Source: a bacterium
Lineage (GTDB): Bacteria; UBP6; JAFGXH01
Direction: 5' to 3'
Length of the DNA stretch: 11,000 bases
Assembly (NCBI GenBank): GCA_027064085.1
Contig: JAMOQH010000090.1
Coordinates: 1-11,000 of the forward strand
Shown piece after piece: positions 2 to 11,000 of the stretch. Below the pieces are notes generated by a model. The model was given only the letters and a program-made list of their open reading frames with translations. It had not been told where the DNA came from and made no database searches. Within the stretch, counting starts at the first letter, position 1. Every line of letters begins with the position of its first letter. The position numbers were made by a program, and so were the translations under genes.

Positions 2-745
2 TTAGAGCCAAGCTTTGCATCTATTATTCATAATTCAAGAAGTGGAGCATATATTGCTCATTCAGAATATAGAACAGCAAGCATGAAAGATAATAATATT
101 GTTTATGAAAAACAAAAATGTTTAACATATGCATATAAAGAAAATTATGAAATTTCAATGCTATCTAAAATGCTTGGAAATGAAGAAACTTTAGAAGCAT
201 ATAAACTTGATGATGAAATTACCGATAATGAAAAACAGACTTTAAATATTTCAAATATACTTTATGAATTTATGAAAATATCTAAATTTAAAGCAGATAC
301 TGATTTTATTTTAAAAGATAATGTTTCAGAAAAAGTATATGCATCTACTGTTTTTAAATCTAAAATTAACGAATTATTTGAATTTCCTATCAATAAATCT
401 AAAATAAAAAATACTCTTCCAACAAGGAATTCAAAAGAATGGAAAGCATTATATGATTATGCTGAAACTATTTATGAAATTAAATTATTAGATTATAATA
501 TTATTAACAAAATGTCACAAGATAACAAAAATGTATATTATGAAAAATTATATTTTGAATTAAATAGTGAAAAAGTAAAAGCTACAAATGTACAAAATCT
601 TGATATTATGAAATTGCAAAATGAATTTGCTGAATTTATTTATGATGAAATGAAATTTTACAATGATGATGATAAATTAAATGATGAAGCTTTTATAGAA
701 GAAATGGAAGCTTCTTATCAAGGAACCAAACTTAAAGGAAATTAG
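2..745 (+). CDS. Unrecognised protein, 3' part of a gene cut by the window start
   Basis: The reading frame is open from base 2, well upstream of the first ATG at 83, and the upstream codons read as ordinary protein (ending ...AHSEYRTAS before that ATG). I therefore read this as the C-terminal 247 residues of a longer protein and not as a gene starting at 83. The visible part is rich in Lys, Glu, Asn and Tyr, with no signal peptide, membrane segment, cysteine cluster or nucleotide-binding motif that I can see. The C-terminus is acidic. It ends in TAG directly abutting the ATG of the next gene (TAGATG), with that gene's ribosome site inside its last codons, so the two are translationally linked. 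Its place ahead of nuclease and helicase genes suggests phage or plasmid DNA metabolism. I do not recognise the family. Confidence 0.8.
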   Translation, partial: LEPSFASIIHNSRSGAYIAHSEYRTASMKDNNIVYEKQKCLTYAYKENYEISMLSKMLGNEETLEAYKLDDEITDNEKQTLNISNILYEFMKISKFKADTDFILKDNVSEKVYASTVFKSKINELFEFPINKSKIKNTLPTRNSKEWKALYDYAETIYEIKLLDYNIINKMSQDNKNVYYEKLYFELNSEKVKATNVQNLDIMKLQNEFAEFIYDEMKFYNDDDKLNDEAFIEEMEASYQGTKLKGN

Positions 746-1522
746 ATGATTGAATCAGTAGAAGTAATTGGATGTGGAGGGGCATTTGATACAGAAATGA
801 CAAATTCATCATTTTTAATTAATACATCAGATGAATCAATCTTATTTGATTGTGGATATAACGTATTTACAAAATTAAAAGAATTAGAAAAAGATAGACC
901 AAATATTATAAAAAATATATCTTATATAATTATTTCTCATCTTGATGATGATCATGTAGGATCTTTAAAATCATTTCTATATTATAGATATTTCATTTAT
1001 GGATTAACAACTACTGTAATCGGACAAGAAAAAGCATTAAAATTTCTTGATGGAATTAATAAAAAAATGGAAAGCTTCAAATTTGTTGGAGCTAATATTT
1101 ACAAAGCAAATATTATATATAATGAATTATTTTTCAATATAAATAAATTAGATAATATATCTTTTAAATCAATCTCAGGTATTCATCATATAGAAACAAG
1201 TGGAATTTTAATTAGAGATAGCGAAAAAATAATATTAATTTCTGGAGACACAAAAAGTACATGTAATTTTTCAAATACTATAGAAGAAGTTTCTAAAATA
1301 ATGAAAGTACCATTTGGTTCAAATACTTTGATATTTCATGATTATTCACCATGGAATGCACCATCTAGAAATGTTCATGCAACTGACAATTGCATGAGAT
1401 CTGAATATCCAGAATGGTTTAGAAACAAAATGATTAAATACCATTTTTCAACTTGTAATATTGAAGGAAATATATATAAATTTAATTCAAAAGAAAAAAA
1501 ATGGTATCTAGAAAATACATAA
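746..1522 (+). CDS. Metallo-beta-lactamase-fold hydrolase (tRNase Z/ComEC-like metal site)
   Basis: This 258-aa soluble protein carries the ordered metal motifs of the MBL fold. They are a start strand ending in FDCG (34-37), the motif H65-x-D67-x-D69-H70, His147/His148, the GDT motif with D168, and His198, His211 or His233 as candidates for the last ligand. The order HxDxDH, then His, then GDT, then His resembles RNase Z-type and phage MBL hydrolases. Asp at the second position of HxHxDH is unusual for RNase Z but occurs in ComEC-type MBL domains. Such enzymes hydrolyse phosphoesters of RNA, DNA or nucleotides using two metal ions; the substrate here cannot be told. AAAGGAA lies six bases before the ATG, which abuts the upstream stop. 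It could act in DNA or RNA processing with the nearby nuclease and helicase, or as a counter-defence phosphodiesterase. Confidence 0.85.
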   Translation: MIESVEVIGCGGAFDTEMTNSSFLINTSDESILFDCGYNVFTKLKELEKDRPNIIKNISYIIISHLDDDHVGSLKSFLYYRYFIYGLTTTVIGQEKALKFLDGINKKMESFKFVGANIYKANIIYNELFFNINKLDNISFKSISGIHHIETSGILIRDSEKIILISGDTKSTCNFSNTIEEVSKIMKVPFGSNTLIFHDYSPWNAPSRNVHATDNCMRSEYPEWFRNKMIKYHFSTCNIEGNIYKFNSKEKKWYLENT

Positions 1523-1540
1523 ACATTAAAAGGAAATTAG

Positions 1541-1723
1541 ATGAGAATATATCAACTTAAATACTTAGTAGATGAGCTACAAGCATTAAAAGCTTTAGGA
1601 GGCAGTAGCTATACTAAAGCAGAAAAACTATTGCATACAGAAGCTACTACAGAGAATATTGAATTATGCATGAAAGAAATACAACATGAAATCAACAAAC
1701 AACAACTTAAAAATAATAAGTAA
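1541..1723 (+). CDS. Small protein of unknown function (60 aa)
   Basis: A 60-residue, mostly helical-looking, charged protein with no cysteine cluster or membrane segment. A clear AAAGGAA ribosome site sits just ahead of the ATG. The 16-base block from that site through ATGA (1529-1544) is identical to the start region of the MBL gene (734-749), which supports genuine translation. It lies between the MBL hydrolase and the PD-(D/E)XK nuclease, with 18 and 39 bases of spacing. I do not recognise it. A small accessory or DNA-mimic role is possible, but nothing in the sequence demonstrates one. Confidence 0.65.
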   Translation: MRIYQLKYLVDELQALKALGGSSYTKAEKLLHTEATTENIELCMKEIQHEINKQQLKNNK

Positions 1724-1762
1724 ATATTTTGCTTTATTACAAAAACAAAAAAGGATAGATAT

Positions 1763-2506
1763 ATGGATCTCAAAGAGAAACTAATTACAACAATGCTAGA
1801 TGCAACTAAATATACTGGATCCACAGGAAAGGAAACAAAAAAGATTAGTGCTTCATCATTTGATTCAGAACCATTACAACTGTATTTAAGATATAAATAT
1901 GGAGATCAAAATGATAGTAAAGATTTTACAGCTTCTACTGCTGGATCATTATTACAACTTGGTGTAGATTCAATCTTTGGTTCTATGAATGATTTTAAGA
2001 TAGCTACAAGAGTTGAAAAAGTTTTACCCAATGGATTTACTGTATCAGGAGAAACAGACCTTATATCAGAAGAATATAAAGCAATTATTGACTTTAAATT
2101 ATTAGCTGGCGGAGGATTCAAAAAGGTATTATCAAGAGATTCATATGTATCAAACATGAGTATTTACAATTGGTTATTTGATAACAAATATCCTAATTCA
2201 TATTTATTTGCAATTAACAAAGCTGGTTCTTCAGTAAGAGGAGATCAGTATACTTTTATTGATTATACAGATTGCATTTGGGATTATGATGAAGTAGAAG
2301 AGATATTAATTGATAAAACAAACGAGATCCAACATATGATAGATCATCCAGAAGATATTCCTGAATGTAATGTATTCGAATATGGTAAAAGCAAAACAGG
2401 GGTTCCTAATAAATGTGAATTTTATTGTTCATTTAAAAATGTATGTCCTGCGTATAAAAAGAGAATGGAAAAGAATAATCATCATGCATTAAAGGCATTA
2501 ATTTAA
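1763..2506 (+). CDS. PD-(D/E)XK nuclease, RecB/Cas4-like, with C-terminal Cys cluster
   Basis: A 247-aa soluble protein with the catalytic signature of RecB/Cas4-type exonucleases. There is a helix with G61-x3-Q65 where these enzymes usually have GxxxH, then E85, then G-E-T-D99, then I-I-D110-F-K112, the D...DxK core that binds the metal ion. Cysteines C202, C218, C222 and C228 near the end (spacing C-x3-C-x5-C for the last three) resemble the cluster that binds iron-sulphur in Cas4/AddB. In those proteins, however, the first Cys lies ahead of the nuclease core, and I see none there. Phage versions of this family trim DNA ends in replication and recombination. AAGGA at 1751-1755 sits seven bases before the ATG. 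No Cas1/Cas2 or repeat array is in view, so I do not call it CRISPR-related. Confidence 0.8.
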   Translation: MDLKEKLITTMLDATKYTGSTGKETKKISASSFDSEPLQLYLRYKYGDQNDSKDFTASTAGSLLQLGVDSIFGSMNDFKIATRVEKVLPNGFTVSGETDLISEEYKAIIDFKLLAGGGFKKVLSRDSYVSNMSIYNWLFDNKYPNSYLFAINKAGSSVRGDQYTFIDYTDCIWDYDEVEEILIDKTNEIQHMIDHPEDIPECNVFEYGKSKTGVPNKCEFYCSFKNVCPAYKKRMEKNNHHALKALI

Positions 2507-2554
2507 AATATTGATTTAAAGAACATAAAAAATAAAACAATATAAAGGGAAAAT

Positions 2555-2893
2555 ATGGGTTATAGAAGTGAAGTATTTATAAAAATAGATTTAAAACATA
2601 AAGATGAATTAAATCAAGTTTTAAAAGAAAATGATTTATTAGATTGTTTTAAAACTACAAATGATGAAAATTATTATTATGCATATGGAAGTTGGTTAAA
2701 ATTTTATGAAGGATATACAGATGTAAAAGCCTTAATTAATTTTATAGAAGATGATGAAGAAGAAAATTCAAAAGCAATGTTAGCAATTGGAGAAGATGAT
2801 GCTACGACTTATTGGGGAGCATATGATGAAGTTGAATTATGGGCATTATGTGATGTAAATTCTGAAAATTTTCCAATACAAGAATTAAGATAA
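2555..2893 (+). CDS. Small acidic phage-type protein beginning MGYRSEV (112 aa)
   Basis: A 112-aa acidic protein. The opening GYRSEV followed by alternating strand and helix segments recalls a group of small phage proteins that begin MGYRS(D/E)V; this is from memory and gives no function. Aromatic residues are frequent (Y and W in YYYAYGSWLKFYEGY and TTYWGAYDEVELWAL), suggesting a compact alpha/beta fold, and the middle has an acidic run (EDDEEE). AAAGGGA at 2544-2550 precedes the ATG. The stop is followed within three bases by a strong RNA hairpin, so transcript level or stability may change after this gene. The function is unknown. Confidence 0.75.
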   Translation: MGYRSEVFIKIDLKHKDELNQVLKENDLLDCFKTTNDENYYYAYGSWLKFYEGYTDVKALINFIEDDEEENSKAMLAIGEDDATTYWGAYDEVELWALCDVNSENFPIQELR

Positions 2894-2895
2894 AA

Positions 2896-2923
2896 ATATA
2901 AAGTGGCTTATACCACTTTATAT
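2896..2923 (+). promoter_or_regulatory. Intercistronic RNA hairpin (11-bp perfect stem)
   Basis: ATATAAAGTGG (2896-2906) pairs perfectly with CCACTTTATAT (2913-2923) around a six-base loop, CTTATA. It begins two bases after the stop of the preceding gene and ends just before the ribosome site of the endonuclease gene. It is not followed by a T-run, so it is a poor intrinsic terminator on the + strand. It could stabilise the upstream mRNA, act as a processing site, or tune translation of the endonuclease. Confidence 0.6.
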
Positions 2924-2938
2924 AATAAAGGAGATCCA

Positions 2939-3610
2939 ATGCCATATAAGCATTCAGAAAAAAAGATACCTGAGAAATTAGATAGAAGAGTTAAATTAAC
3001 TAAGTCTCAAAAAGATGAAAAAAAAATGAAAAAAAATATAAAAAAATGTTCAGTTAAAGATTGTGATAAAAATGCTAAATGCAAAGGATTATGTATAACG
3101 CATTATAATAGATATAAAAGATATGGAAGAACACATTTAATAAGAAAATTTAATTTATCAGACAATGAAAAAAGAATGTATAAAATTTTAAAAGAAATGA
3201 TAAGAAGATGTGAAAATAAAAAATCAAATGCTTATAAATGGTATGGAGCTAAAGGGATAACTGTTTGTGATAGATGGAAAAATTCTGTTGAATTATTTAT
3301 ATCAGATATGGGAGAAAGACCAGATGAAAATTATAGTATCGACAGAATTGATAGCAATGGTAACTATGAACCAAGTAATTGTAGATGGGCAAACAGAACA
3401 ACACAAGCAAGAAATATTTCAACATTAAGAAAAAATAATACAACAGGGTTTAAAGGCGTAGGCAAACATGGTAAAAAATTTCAAGCAAGAATAACTATAA
3501 AAAAGAAATTAATACATATTGGAACTTTTGATACAGCAAAAGAAGCAGCTTTGGCATATGATAAATATATAAATATTCATAATTTAGAACATACTAAAAA
3601 TTTTATATAA
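2939..3610 (+). CDS. HNH-type homing endonuclease with zinc finger and AP2 DNA-binding domain
   Basis: I take the ATG at 2939 because AAAGGAG lies seven bases upstream; an in-frame GTG at 2903 lies inside the hairpin and has no ribosome site. The 223-aa protein has three parts. Residues 37-55 form a small metal site (C37, C42, C48, C52, H55). Residues about 87-160 match the phage HNH family, with RRC91, WYGAKGI (101-107), W113, DMG (123-125), SIDRIDSNGNY (133-143) and NCRW (147-150). Residues 168-211 form an AP2 domain (TTGFKGV, then FQARI, IGTFDTAKEAALAYD). Such proteins cut a specific DNA site and spread their own gene. Residues 1-27 (MPYKHSEKKIPEKLDRR...) look unlike the rest and resemble the N-terminus of the HTH family whose C-terminal part follows at 3598-3810, so the gene seems to have landed inside that HTH gene and adopted its start. 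Confidence 0.88.
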   Translation: MPYKHSEKKIPEKLDRRVKLTKSQKDEKKMKKNIKKCSVKDCDKNAKCKGLCITHYNRYKRYGRTHLIRKFNLSDNEKRMYKILKEMIRRCENKKSNAYKWYGAKGITVCDRWKNSVELFISDMGERPDENYSIDRIDSNGNYEPSNCRWANRTTQARNISTLRKNNTTGFKGVGKHGKKFQARITIKKKLIHIGTFDTAKEAALAYDKYINIHNLEHTKNFI

Positions 3611-3624
3611 ATGAATTAGCAAAG

Positions 3625-3810
3625 ATGTATGGTGTATCAAAAAGATTAATTTCATTTATAGTAGATCCAGATAAGTTAAAAAGAAACTATCAAAAAAGAG
3701 TAGAAAATGGTGGTTCTAAACAATATTATAATAAAGATAAACATACTCTACAAATACGTGAACATAGAAGATATAAGCAAGAATTGTATATAAGAGGAAA
3801 ACTAGAATAA
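3625..3810 (+). CDS. Helix-turn-helix protein, probable 3' remnant split by the endonuclease gene
   Basis: The frame is open from 3598 and reads NELAKMYGVSKRLISFIV across the ATG at 3625, so the helix-turn-helix begins before the only available start codon. No ATG, GTG or TTG lies in frame between 3598 and 3625, and no good ribosome site precedes 3625. The tail (GGSKQYYNKDKH, then EHRRYKQELY) is a pattern I recall from short phage HTH proteins, whose N-terminus resembles residues 1-27 of the upstream endonuclease. I infer one HTH gene of roughly 100 codons that was interrupted, with about a dozen residues unaccounted for at the junction. The piece may be untranslated, translated as a 61-aa fragment lacking half its HTH, or restored by an RNA event. 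It overlaps the next gene by one base (TAATG). Confidence 0.55.
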   Translation: MYGVSKRLISFIVDPDKLKRNYQKRVENGGSKQYYNKDKHTLQIREHRRYKQELYIRGKLE

Positions 3811-4112
3811 TGAATGATACAAAAGAAACATTATTAAATAATGTATTGTCAACAGTAAATGAACTTGAAGATGAGCAAACAGATATATTTAAATGGGTAG
3901 ATGAACAACTATCTATTGAATCAATATGTTTTGATACTGAAGATAATTTAAATGGAGTTGAAATATTATGCTCATTTGGTGGACCAGATATAAGAGTTTA
4001 TTGTGGAAGATATAATTATGTAGAAGGTTATTGGGGAACAGGCACAATAAGCAGAACATTTGATGACAATAGATTGTTTGAATATATGGAAGAGCTATAT
4101 AGTAGAAAATAA
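3810..4112 (+). CDS. Small acidic protein of unknown function (100 aa)
   Basis: A 100-aa acidic soluble protein. The N-terminal 40 residues look helical. The second half has alternating strands around FGGPDIRVYCGRY and VEGYWGTG, a glycine- and aromatic-rich segment of a kind common in small phage and plasmid proteins. Three cysteines are present but show no paired metal spacing. Its ATG overlaps the previous stop (TAATG), and GAGGA at 3794-3798 is a usable ribosome site, so translation is probably coupled or independent. The helicase gene follows 11 bases later behind AAAAGGAT. I do not recognise a family and assign no function. Confidence 0.7.
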   Translation: MNDTKETLLNNVLSTVNELEDEQTDIFKWVDEQLSIESICFDTEDNLNGVEILCSFGGPDIRVYCGRYNYVEGYWGTGTISRTFDDNRLFEYMEELYSRK

Positions 4113-4123
4113 AAGGATAATAG

Positions 4124-5971
4124 ATGAAATTAAGTGAAACAATTACACTTAGAGATTACCAAGAAGAAATGGTAATAAAAACACTTGATGCGATTGATGA
4201 GCTAGAAAGTGAACAAGCATTTGGTGAACCAGATTCATATACAATAATAATGAAGCTACTGATGTCGGCTGGAAAAACCTATACTGCTTTAGCATTAGCA
4301 AATGAGCTTTCAAAAAGAGGAGAAAAGATAGGGATCTTTTTTCCATATAAAATATTAGTTGATCAATTCGCAGAATCAGCAAGAGAAGCTAATATAGAAA
4401 TTGGAGTTATATCATCAGGAACTAAGAACCCTAATCCAGAAGCAAATATTCAAGTATGTATGATCCAAACTTTACATAGTATGTATAGAAACAATAAATT
4501 AGATATTAAATTTAGTAAAGTTATCCAGGACGAAGTTGCTTCTCACTTTGAAAGTGGTTCTGTTATTGATTTAAAAGAATCTCTTGGATATAACATTAGA
4601 ATTGGAATGACAGGTACTGATTTTACAAGTCAAGGATATGCTTTAAATGCCTTTAAAACTATTGAAACAATAGGACCAAAAGGATTGGTTGAACAAAAAG
4701 CATGGCATCCAAATATGAAATATAATGTTGCTAATTTTTCTGAAAAAATGGATTGGGATAAAATTAAAATTGAAAGTAATGGAGAATTTAATCAAGCACA
4801 ATTAAGTGAAATAATTGAAGCAGATACATATATACATCAAGCAATTAAAGCAATGAATAGTTTTAATATGAAAGACGATAAGACAATTGTTTTTACATCA
4901 TCAATACATATGGCTCAAAAAATAACAGTAGCATTAAATGAAGCAGGATATTCAGCAAAAGAATATCATTCAAAGATGAAAAAAAAAGAACGAGAAGCAG
5001 TATTAAATAGCTTTATAAATGAAACAGAATATAAAGATCCAAACAACAAACAAATAGCTCTTCCTGGAATGAGAGAACAAGAACCAGAGATTATCAAATG
5101 TTGTGTTAATGTTCAAGCATTAAATGTTGGGTTTAATGTTCCAGATATAAAGAATTTAGTATTAGCAACATCAATGATGAGTAGAATTAAACACCATCAA
5201 ACAATTGCAAGATTGATTAGATATCATGAAATGGAAGAAAAAATCCTTTTAGACTGTGGATCCAACATTTCAAGAAACTTTTTCTTAGATGATACATTTA
5301 CTCCTGTAAATAGAACAGAGAATAAACAAATAGACAAAGCTAACCTAGCTAGAGAAAATGCTAAATGGAGCTTGCCTTTATTAAATGAATTCCTAAGTGA
5401 CGATCTAACTACTGAAATATCAAGAGATTGGTATGATAGTAAATTGGATAATCTTAGGGCTATTGAAAATAGCATTTTTAATAATAACCAAGAAGAAGAA
5501 TTGGTTAAAGAGGGAACTGGATCTAGCAATAGGGATATAGATCCAGAAGAAGTGCGTATTAAACATGAACAAGATATGGCTAAAAACATGGCAATGGTCT
5601 TAAGAACAACAGATGACTTAGAACATTTAGCAAAAGCTTATATTTGGTTCTGGATGTATATAAATGGATCTCCTATATCAAAGGCTGGGCATAAATATGT
5701 TCCCAAAACGGAGTGGTTCGTAGATAAATGGAAAGCAGATATTGATAAATATCCTGAAGTGAGAAACAGATTTATGAAAGCTTTGAAAACAAGAGCTAAG
5801 AATATAATCAAAGAAGGGAAGAATATTAATTCTTTATCTTTTTTTACGAATTTCTTATTAACAAATTATGAAAATGAGATCCAACAACAAGATGAATATA
5901 AACAATTACAATTTGGTTCTGAAGACAACAATGTAATGAATGAAATTTCAGAAGAAGAATGTCCATTTTAA
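4124..5971 (+). CDS. Superfamily 2 DNA/RNA helicase (DEAD/DEAH-type core)
   Basis: A 615-aa protein with the SF2 motifs in order. These are LRDYQ (9-13, Q-motif-like), the Walker A variant MSAGKT (47-52, K51), the Walker B/DExx box DEVA (136-139) followed by SHF, and TGT (163-165, motif III). They continue with IVFTSS near 255 (motif IV), VQALNVGFNVPD near 329-340 (motif V) and QTIARLIR (359-366, motif VI with arginine fingers). The DExx box is not a clean DEAH or DEAD, which is usual for phage UvsW/RadD-like helicases. The last 240 residues form a separate helical region, with a WFW/YING segment near 507-513, that I cannot assign. It uses ATP to move on or remodel nucleic acid, probably in phage replication or recombination with the nearby nuclease. 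The ribosome site AAAAGGAT precedes the ATG. Confidence 0.9.
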   Translation: MKLSETITLRDYQEEMVIKTLDAIDELESEQAFGEPDSYTIIMKLLMSAGKTYTALALANELSKRGEKIGIFFPYKILVDQFAESAREANIEIGVISSGTKNPNPEANIQVCMIQTLHSMYRNNKLDIKFSKVIQDEVASHFESGSVIDLKESLGYNIRIGMTGTDFTSQGYALNAFKTIETIGPKGLVEQKAWHPNMKYNVANFSEKMDWDKIKIESNGEFNQAQLSEIIEADTYIHQAIKAMNSFNMKDDKTIVFTSSIHMAQKITVALNEAGYSAKEYHSKMKKKEREAVLNSFINETEYKDPNNKQIALPGMREQEPEIIKCCVNVQALNVGFNVPDIKNLVLATSMMSRIKHHQTIARLIRYHEMEEKILLDCGSNISRNFFLDDTFTPVNRTENKQIDKANLARENAKWSLPLLNEFLSDDLTTEISRDWYDSKLDNLRAIENSIFNNNQEEELVKEGTGSSNRDIDPEEVRIKHEQDMAKNMAMVLRTTDDLEHLAKAYIWFWMYINGSPISKAGHKYVPKTEWFVDKWKADIDKYPEVRNRFMKALKTRAKNIIKEGKNINSLSFFTNFLLTNYENEIQQQDEYKQLQFGSEDNNVMNEISEEECPF

Positions 5972-8475: not shown

Positions 8476-8495
8476 TTTGTTTCCATGGAAACAAA
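8476..8495. promoter_or_regulatory. parS: parS-like site 1
   Basis: A perfect 20-bp palindrome, TTTGTTTCCATGGAAACAAA, first of three identical copies ahead of a ParB-like gene. Its 16-bp core TGTTTCCATGGAAACA matches the chromosomal-type parS (TGTTTCACGTGAAACA) at 12 of 16 positions. Only the central four bases differ (CATG in place of ACGT). It is probably bound by the adjacent ParB. Confidence 0.75.
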
Positions 8496-8510: not shown

Positions 8511-8530
8511 TTTGTTTCCATGGAAACAAA
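8511..8530. promoter_or_regulatory. parS: parS-like site 2
   Basis: Second identical copy of the 20-bp palindrome, its centre 35 bp after that of site 1. The sequence between sites 1 and 2 is plain AT-rich DNA with no shared motif, so the conserved unit is the palindrome alone. Confidence 0.75.
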
Positions 8531-8554: not shown

Positions 8555-8574
8555 TTTGTTTCCATGGAAACAAA
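8555..8574. promoter_or_regulatory. parS: parS-like site 3
   Basis: Third identical copy, its centre 44 bp after that of site 2 and preceded by a run of T. It ends 28 bases before the -35 of the promoter inferred for the ParB-like gene, so ParB loading or spreading here could also repress that promoter. Confidence 0.75.
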
Positions 8575-8678: not shown

Positions 8679-9485
8679 ATGAAAAAAGATAAAAAAATAA
8701 AAACAGAAGATATTTTTGCAAGAAATATTTACGATATAGAAACACATAAGTTAGCAAATATGAATCCAATGCAAAATGATGAAGATTTTTTAGCATTAAA
8801 ATATAGTATTGAAAAAATAGGTCAAACAGATCCAATATTAATGTTTAAAGGAAAATTAGTAGATGGAAGAAATAGATTAAAAGCATTAAAAGAACTTTAT
8901 GAAGATACCGAAGAAGAAAAATATAAAATTATAAAATATAAAAAACTTTCAACAACTCTTTCAAATGATGAATTAGAAGAATTAATAATTGGAAAAGAAA
9001 CGAGAAGACATAAAAGTATTGTACAAAAAGCAATTCAATCATTAAATTATTATGAAGCTAAAAAAGAATTAAAAGAAGATATAAATATGCGTGAATCTGC
9101 AAAAAAATTTGGAGTAAGCGTAGGACAAGTATCAAAAGTATTATCTTTAAAAAAAGTAGCTGGAGAAGCAGTGGTGCAAATATTGTTTAATGGTGGAAGT
9201 ATAAAAATAAAAAAAGCAAAAGCAAATGGAACAATATATGAAATTAAATCAACATCACCTGATGCAATTAGAAAATATTATGAAGGATTAATTGCAAAAA
9301 ATGATTCAATATACGAAAATATGGAAGCAGAAGAGATGGCATATATACAATTAATAAGTACAGAATTATTAAATGATTTATCTTTTGATGGAGCAAATTA
9401 TTTAATGAAAATAATTGAAAATTCAAAGGATATAAATAAAACTTCATATAATAAAGAAAAAATAGAAGATTATATTAGTTCATAG
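8679..9485 (+). CDS. ParB-like partition/DNA-binding protein
   Basis: A 268-aa protein with a ParB/Srx-type N-terminal domain: a strand-helix segment at 28-50 (with SIEKIGQTDPILMF at 43-56), then LVDGRNRLKAL (60-70). R64 and R66 sit where classical ParB CTPases have the GERRxRA motif, so the nucleotide pocket looks altered. KETRRHKSIVQKA (106-118) matches the next conserved block of this superfamily. A helix-turn-helix follows at about 136-157 (NMRESAKKFGVSVGQVSKVL). The C-terminal 90 residues are charged and probably mediate dimerisation. AAGGA (8665-8669) precedes the ATG. Three parS-like palindromes and a promoter lie upstream, which supports a role in segregation or replicon maintenance. 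No ParA gene lies in the window. A phage ParB-like regulator is the main alternative. Confidence 0.82.
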   Translation: MKKDKKIKTEDIFARNIYDIETHKLANMNPMQNDEDFLALKYSIEKIGQTDPILMFKGKLVDGRNRLKALKELYEDTEEEKYKIIKYKKLSTTLSNDELEELIIGKETRRHKSIVQKAIQSLNYYEAKKELKEDINMRESAKKFGVSVGQVSKVLSLKKVAGEAVVQILFNGGSIKIKKAKANGTIYEIKSTSPDAIRKYYEGLIAKNDSIYENMEAEEMAYIQLISTELLNDLSFDGANYLMKIIENSKDINKTSYNKEKIEDYISS

Positions 9486-10227: not shown

Positions 10228-11000
10228 ATGGGAGGATATAAATATATCCTTGATAGATTAGAAAAGCAAGGTGATAGAAAAACAGATAGATTAATATACT
10301 CAAATGCTATCTTGTTCCACGCTGCTGTATTAATTAATGCTATCAATGGAAAAGCAAAAAAATATAATGGAAAAAATATTACATTTTATGGATTAACATT
10401 AGCGGGAAGTGCTTGTGTATCTGGTGATACTGAATTTATGACAGAAAATGGATGGAAAAAAATATCTGATTTTGAATATAGAGATAAAGTATTAGAAATA
10501 GAAAAAGATACCCATATAGCAACATTCAGAGAACCAATAAGATATGTCAAAGAATTTGATGATAAACCAGCTATAAGATATGTACCAAACACAAACAGCA
10601 ATGTTTCAATGCATATAACAGAAGATCATACAGTTTTATATTTAGAAAATAAAAATGATATAAAATCTTCAAAAGCAAAAACAGCAAAAGAAGTTTCAAA
10701 ACTTAATAATATTTATATTCCATCATTAAAAGAAGATGGTTCTTCAAATAGTACCATAGCTTCAAAAGATCAAATTGTTTATGAACAATTACCTAATAAT
10801 ACAAAATATTGTTTTACAACTAAGACAGGGTTCTGGTTAGCAAGACATGACAATTTTGTATTTATTACTGGAAATTGTGGAAAAGATTTCTCTTATGATT
10901 TAGCAGCAAAAGTATTTGGTACTGATACTCCTGGATTTAAAAAAGGTTATGTAGAAACAATTAAAACAAACCTTAGAAATAATCTTGTAAATGATGAATC
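10228..11000 (+). CDS. P-loop ATPase (probably DUF3987-like), interrupted by an intein; 3' end beyond window
   Basis: The frame is open from the ATG at 10228 (ribosome site AAGGA at 10216-10220) to the window end. Residues 1-62 are the N-extein, ending TFYGLTLAGSA; a 154-residue intein follows (63-216); the C-extein resumes CGKDFSYDLAAKVFG. Joined, the exteins read FYGLTLAGSACGKDFSYDLA, a P-loop-like segment (G-S-A-C-G-K-D) in which Asp replaces the usual Ser/Thr after Lys. The pattern 'fYgLxLApSGxGKD' recalls DUF3987 primase/helicase-associated ATPases of phages and plasmids, so a replication role is likely but inferred. Inteins favour such conserved active sites. Activity would depend on splicing, because the insert separates the P-loop glycine from its lysine. 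Confidence 0.8.
   Translation, partial: MGGYKYILDRLEKQGDRKTDRLIYSNAILFHAAVLINAINGKAKKYNGKNITFYGLTLAGSACVSGDTEFMTENGWKKISDFEYRDKVLEIEKDTHIATFREPIRYVKEFDDKPAIRYVPNTNSNVSMHITEDHTVLYLENKNDIKSSKAKTAKEVSKLNNIYIPSLKEDGSSNSTIASKDQIVYEQLPNNTKYCFTTKTGFWLARHDNFVFITGNCGKDFSYDLAAKVFGTDTPGFKKGYVETIKTNLRNNLVNDE
10414..10875 (+). other. Mini-intein (154 aa) inserted in the ATPase P-loop
   Basis: The Hint domain is complete. Block A is CVSGDTEFMTENGWKKI, starting with the nucleophile C63. Block B has T131-x2-H134 (ITEDHTVL). Block F is KYCFTTKTGFWLARHDNFVF, and block G is ITGN216, followed by the +1 nucleophile C217. The usual penultimate His is Gly215, and the block F Asp position is Cys195; both variants exist in natural inteins. 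At 154 residues it has no room for a homing endonuclease. It splices itself out of the protein and ligates the exteins. It starts and ends with Cys at the splice junctions, so the protein should be splicing-competent, though this is not proven. Confidence 0.92.

Follow-up and report, generated by a model that had tools for sequence, protein, structure and literature searches.

The window, that is, the whole 11,000-nt stretch of DNA analysed, is low-GC phage DNA, and the features described at this locus lie on its forward strand unless otherwise stated. An open reading frame (ORF) of 223 aa (2939–3610) joins 27 codons of a small helix-turn-helix (HTH) gene to an HNH-AP2 endonuclease, and matches PHROG HNH endonuclease families with a best E value of 2.9e-49. 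The leader, MPYKHSEKKIPEKLDRRVKLTKSQKDE (2939–3018), represents the 5′ part of the HTH gene, its last codon ending at the junction, and aligns to a related viral sequence, L001. Directly after the endonuclease stop codon, a second open stretch reads NELAKMYGVSKRL...GGSKQYYNK... and ends at 3810. This stretch contains the 3′ remnant of the HTH gene (3613–3810, with the stop codon at 3808–3810), which shows 92.8% nucleotide identity to L001:3001–3198. The ATG of the next gene (3810–4112 in the ORF lists) overlaps the HTH stop codon (TAATG), and the same overlap is present in L001.

Empty-site relative and boundaries of the insertion

L001 (IMG/VR 3300026484_000002), part of a 91-kb viral contig, was found by searching for relatives of the second open stretch. 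Its HTH gene is uninterrupted (L001:2878–3198, 106 aa), and the leader runs unbroken into ...GELSKMYGVSKRL...GGSKQYY.... The first-pass annotation had read the first 27 residues of the endonuclease as the start of an HTH protein, and the leader indeed opens the unbroken L001 protein, with 93% amino acid identity (48–59% to eight other homologues). In the blastn alignment, window positions 64–3018 correspond to L001 1–2957 (92.8% identity) and positions 3613–4127 to L001 3001–3516 (92.8% identity), and the gene order is identical in the two sequences on both sides of the insert. The gap between 3018 and 3613 therefore delimits an inserted block of 3019–3606, whose right end is uncertain within about 3604–3612. 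These boundaries agree with the ends anticipated earlier, near 3020 and 3600, and the relative with an unbroken gene that the annotation had proposed to look for is supplied by L001, with its collinear, ~93% identical flanks.

In L001, the position of the insert is occupied by 43 nt; about 37–43 nt of the L001-type gene were replaced, with about 37 nt of host sequence missing if the window residues I N correspond to Q G of L001. The net length change of +551 nt shifts the frame, and the replaced L001 segment was not found within the insert above chance. This loss departs from the clean insertion of ideal homing, and no signature of a target site was recognized. Neither the L001 phage record nor any of 27 other genomes of the phylum contains the insert, and no donor copy of the endonuclease was found elsewhere in the genome, in its phylum, or in the L001 phage. 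A weak DNA match on another contig (C116, L008) was considered as a second endonuclease and rejected, as it lies among A/T-rich repeats beside an ORF that appears BatD-like by eye. On these sequence comparisons, we regard the insertion of the endonuclease gene into the HTH gene as real.

The HNH-AP2 endonuclease

Judging from the termini of homologues, the likely native start is the Met at 3026, which gives an endonuclease of 194 aa (3026–3610, with the stop codon TAA at 3608–3610) arranged as a zinc finger, an HNH core, an AP2-like domain, and a native-like C terminus. The N-terminal zinc finger CSVKDCDKNAKCKGLCITHYNR (3041–3103) matches Zf_WRKY19 with an E value of 8e-4, which is below the Pfam cut-off. 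Its relatives in Gordonia, Mycobacterium, and Aeromonas phages match from about residue 30, corresponding to Met 3026, and the homologous gene of Aeromonas phage AsXd-1 starts at the equivalent place. The HNH nuclease core (YKILKEMIRRC...DRIDSNGNYEPSNCRWANRTTQARN, 3179–3415) was recognized from conservation among nine aligned relatives, in which every invariant column except the start Met falls within this core. For the AP2-like DNA-binding domain (3434–3565), the best PDB sequence match was the AP2 domain of WRI1 (E = 0.0082), followed by weaker AP2/ERF matches. The C terminus of the homologue in Polaribacter phage Freya_1 aligns to the last residue of the endonuclease and ends two residues later. 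Since both native-like termini of the endonuclease, N and C, fall at the ends of the insert, the insert appears to comprise a complete endonuclease gene and almost nothing else.

The best phage relatives among the matches listed show only about 35–46% identity to the endonuclease, and the phage relatives among these matches align from residue 61 or later. It had been considered that the MPYK leader might turn out to be a normal part of such endonucleases; it is absent from every homologue found and, by this comparison, is foreign to the endonuclease.

The HTH gene family

The HTH family comprises proteins of about 100–110 residues with conserved ends (MPYK...DRRxKLT and EHRxYKQ). Its members turned up at 35 loci on viral contigs, on 4 genome contigs, in 25 phage records, and on 3 plasmids. 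One member, from a Rhodobacter phage, reaches the Pfam HTH_3 cut-off. The copies that contain the N-terminal region are all uninterrupted except for those of the window and of L039, while the L031 and L033 copies are cut by contig ends. No second homologue interrupted by an insert was found in the viral, genome, phage, or plasmid searches, and the copy in the window is the sole such case among them. The L039 gene (L039:1885–2204) is broken, without any insert, by a 1-nt frameshift immediately ahead of QRKLA, almost where the insertion lies in the window; this break may be an error, a pseudogene, or a frameshift.

The AlphaFold2 model of the L001 HTH protein contains five helices (mean pLDDT of 91.6), and a Foldseek search with it returned no PDB match at E ≤ 0.001. 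The insertion follows residue 27, inside predicted helix 1 (residues 22–35), and precedes both of the predicted helices (40–47 and 51–58) that would form the helix-turn-helix.

Expression of the fusion ORF and fate of the 3′ remnant

A Shine-Dalgarno-like GGAG (2930–2933) belonging to the HTH gene sits 5 bases upstream of ATG 2939, in a context (AAAGGAGATCCAATGCC) that is identical in L001; by reading, nothing comparable precedes ATG 3026 or ATG 3625. Because the endonuclease is fused in frame, with GGAG ahead of the host start and no such sequence ahead of 3026, we infer that the host start and ribosome site are used, and in the simplest reading the 223-aa fusion is probably made from the host start. 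The first-pass annotation had made the same suggestion, to which a small correction must be added: an ATG belonging to the endonuclease itself is also present in frame, at 3026. A 12-pair hairpin (ATATAAAGTGG...CCACTTTATAT, 2896–2923), recognizable also in L001, follows the upstream gene, precedes the ribosome site of the HTH gene, and is terminator-like on the minus strand only.

The remnant lies in the −1 frame with respect to the endonuclease, a frame that opens only at 3598. Its first ATG, at 3625, falls within predicted helix 2 (L001 residues 40–47) and has no Shine-Dalgarno-like sequence ahead of it, which bears out the earlier view that the remainder of the HTH gene resumes in another frame after the endonuclease stop codon without a usable start. 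The interpretation as an interrupted HTH gene would have been undermined by the 61-aa piece occurring as a gene of its own, and this was never seen in about 60 related loci and records; the exceptions in the survey were two contig-edge truncations and the frameshifted L039, whose N-terminal part is still directly upstream. The dN/dS of the remnant relative to L001 was 0.18, with 0.19 for the N-terminal piece and 0.14–0.34 for the neighbours, and the value of the remnant is compatible with either a recent insertion or continued use, which one sequence pair cannot separate. The next gene is possibly translationally coupled to the HTH gene; its start overlaps the stop codon of the remnant, and lost translation of the remnant could therefore lower its expression. 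The insertion probably inactivated the host HTH gene, with helix 1 cut and about 37–43 nt lost, so that its destruction, as first proposed, is best described as likely.

Alternative explanations

Many homing endonucleases in coding genes are carried by introns or inteins, and introns commonly hold their ORF in frame with the upstream exon, which would fit an endonuclease lying inside a self-splicing group I/II intron (or an intein) that restores the HTH protein. However, the insert is essentially all ORF, so that a ribozyme core could not be accommodated; Rfam searches at gathering and relaxed thresholds detected no intron in it, and its RNA folding was no more structured than that of shuffled sequences (z = −0.15), on which grounds a group I/II intron was rejected. 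An intein was likewise rejected, because no Hint domain was matched in the fusion ORF, which ends in a stop codon, and the downstream frame is −1. Moreover, excision of the insert cannot restore the HTH protein: the codons that separated DE from NEL have been lost, so that no more than about 3 residues would stand between them, whereas L001 has 14 and the shortest homologue about 8. We therefore consider splicing extremely improbable. An assembly artefact, in which the endonuclease would come from another phage or the frame break would be a base error, carries only a very slight probability: the window makes up the whole of an 11-kb contig in a genome assembly of 195 contigs, and at the 3′ junction, which falls in an A5T4 run, one wrong base would suffice to shift the frame, but both flanks are collinear with L001 across the insert, the GC content of the insert (24%) fits its surroundings, and the compared neighbouring genes have intact frames.

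A functional split gene of the Aeh1 nrdA type is unlikely but carries more weight. Under this reading, re-initiation at ATG 3625, or coupling of another sort, would keep the remnant translated, and the two pieces would either cooperate still or sustain translation of the downstream gene. The remnant has no stop codon or frameshift across 65 codons, its dN/dS is like that of its neighbours, the TAATG overlap with the next gene is shared with L001, and the pieces of split NrdA and of a split DNA polymerase stay active (PMC2988022). On the other hand, the remainder of helix 1 and the loop, about 12–14 codons, have been lost, a start at ATG 3625, besides having no ribosome-site-like sequence, would remove most of helix 2, and the constraint signal of the remnant may predate the insertion. 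Programmed −1 frameshifting was also considered, at a possible slippery heptamer, A AAT TTT (3598–3604), just before the endonuclease stop codon. A slip there would yield ...NLEHTKNF-YINELAKMYG... and a second product of about 290 aa consisting of the host leader, HNH-AP2, and the C-terminal part of the HTH protein; if so, the host gene would be recruited rather than dead, the endonuclease would gain an extra DNA-binding tail, and translation would keep flowing into the coupled downstream gene. Slippery heptamers occur at 1.3% per codon in the ORFs of the window, with 8 in the 223 codons of the fusion ORF, and the chance of finding one in the four-codon overlap is 5–13% (the upper figure derives from the rate in the fusion ORF itself). 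With the heptamer within chance and no stimulatory structure downstream of it (z = −0.44), programmed frameshifting was rejected, and the slip retains a slim chance of being used.

Proposed event and comparison with known systems

Overall, the favoured explanation, to which we assign a probability of roughly 0.86, is that an HNH-AP2 gene without an intron or intein was inserted in the HTH coding sequence and took over its start, the HTH function being probably lost. In this event, a complete, free-standing-type gene for a homing-type HNH-AP2 endonuclease would have entered the coding sequence of the small phage HTH gene, removing about 37–43 nt and landing in frame with the first 27 codons. 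Transcription and translation would begin at the host gene signals and give a leader–endonuclease fusion, with a shorter product from Met 3026 also possible, and the translation stop at 3608 would leave the rest of the HTH gene as an out-of-frame, start-less remnant. The endonuclease would presumably cut the uninterrupted HTH allele and spread by copying during repair.

Insertions of this kind have precedents in phages, to which the locus adds a new example; its endonuclease combines features of the free-standing HNH type: an HNH core together with an AP2-like DNA-binding domain, a site that is empty in the close relative L001, and no self-splicing intron or intein that carries it. With its empty-site relative identified, the locus exemplifies a homing-type endonuclease that has invaded coding DNA unprotected by an intron or intein, apparently taking over the start of the victim gene. 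It also suggests that this phage can dispense with or replace the small HTH protein, which occurs in phages infecting widely different hosts, and the L001-type and insert-bearing alleles form a concrete pair for a cleavage test.

The insertions of mobE in nrdA of Aeromonas phage Aeh1 and of mobA in the T4 topoisomerase gene 60 are transposition-like, gene-splitting events, and the split NrdA of Aeh1 is still functional (PMC2988022). As in these cases, a free-standing HNH gene with no intron or intein splits a phage coding sequence in the window and apparently uses upstream expression signals. In contrast to mobE and mobA, whose host pieces stay functional (as shown for NrdA), the 3′ piece in the window has no evident start; the interrupted gene encodes a small HTH protein and lost about 37–43 nt, and the endonuclease is fused to 27 host codons. 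To our knowledge, MobE is not an AP2-type protein.

In the ShiLan insertion, a 195-aa HNH ORF lies in a phage DNA methylase gene with no detectable splicing element (PMC11855218). Both inserts are little more than an HNH ORF (195 aa in ShiLan and 194 in the window) with its stop codon at the very end of the insert, both encode one or more zinc fingers, and no splicing element was found in either. The ShiLan endonuclease is out of frame, and its host frame stays open through the insert, whereas in the window the host start leads in frame into the endonuclease, and TAA 3608–3610 ends the host frame; being an in-frame reading, this endonuclease is not a hidden insertion of the ShiLan type. The same HNH core occurs in free-standing phage HNH-AP2 endonucleases (PHROG 374 and 3377; for example, those of Freya_1 and of Staphylococcus phages SEP9 and JDF86), several of which share the AP2 domain and the native-like C terminus, although most of these relatives, unlike the endonuclease in the window, are annotated as separate genes between others with their own start. 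In Escherichia phage ST4 (L067:1–1644), a related HNH gene is flanked by two pieces that carry the annotation DNA polymerase I, and it overlaps the first by 4 nt, representing another possible endonuclease-split gene or intron.

Other features of the window

A perfect 20-bp palindrome, TTTGTTTCCATGGAAACAAA, occurs in three copies (8476–8495, 8511–8530, and 8555–8574) just upstream of an ORF (8679–9485) that is ParB-like by eye. Its core, TGTTTCCATGGAAACA, differs only in the centre from the bacterial parS consensus, TGTTTCACGTGAAACA, and the arrangement suggests a partition site of a phage-plasmid. The ORF at 746–1522 encodes a protein with a metallo-beta-lactamase fold (Pfam E = 8.9e-12). It also matches the anti-Pycsar protein Apyc1, although below the cut-off (E = 2.7e-8), and its product is a possible counter-defence nuclease. 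At 10228–10998, an ORF running off the contig end contains an apparent mini-intein (CVSGDTEF...FITGN/C), with a Hint match (E = 5e-5) below the curated cut-off. The helicase gene (4124–5971) is mosaic relative to L001: roughly 4128–5143 is strongly diverged, with one 159-nt stretch aligning at 75%, and the remainder is 91% identical.
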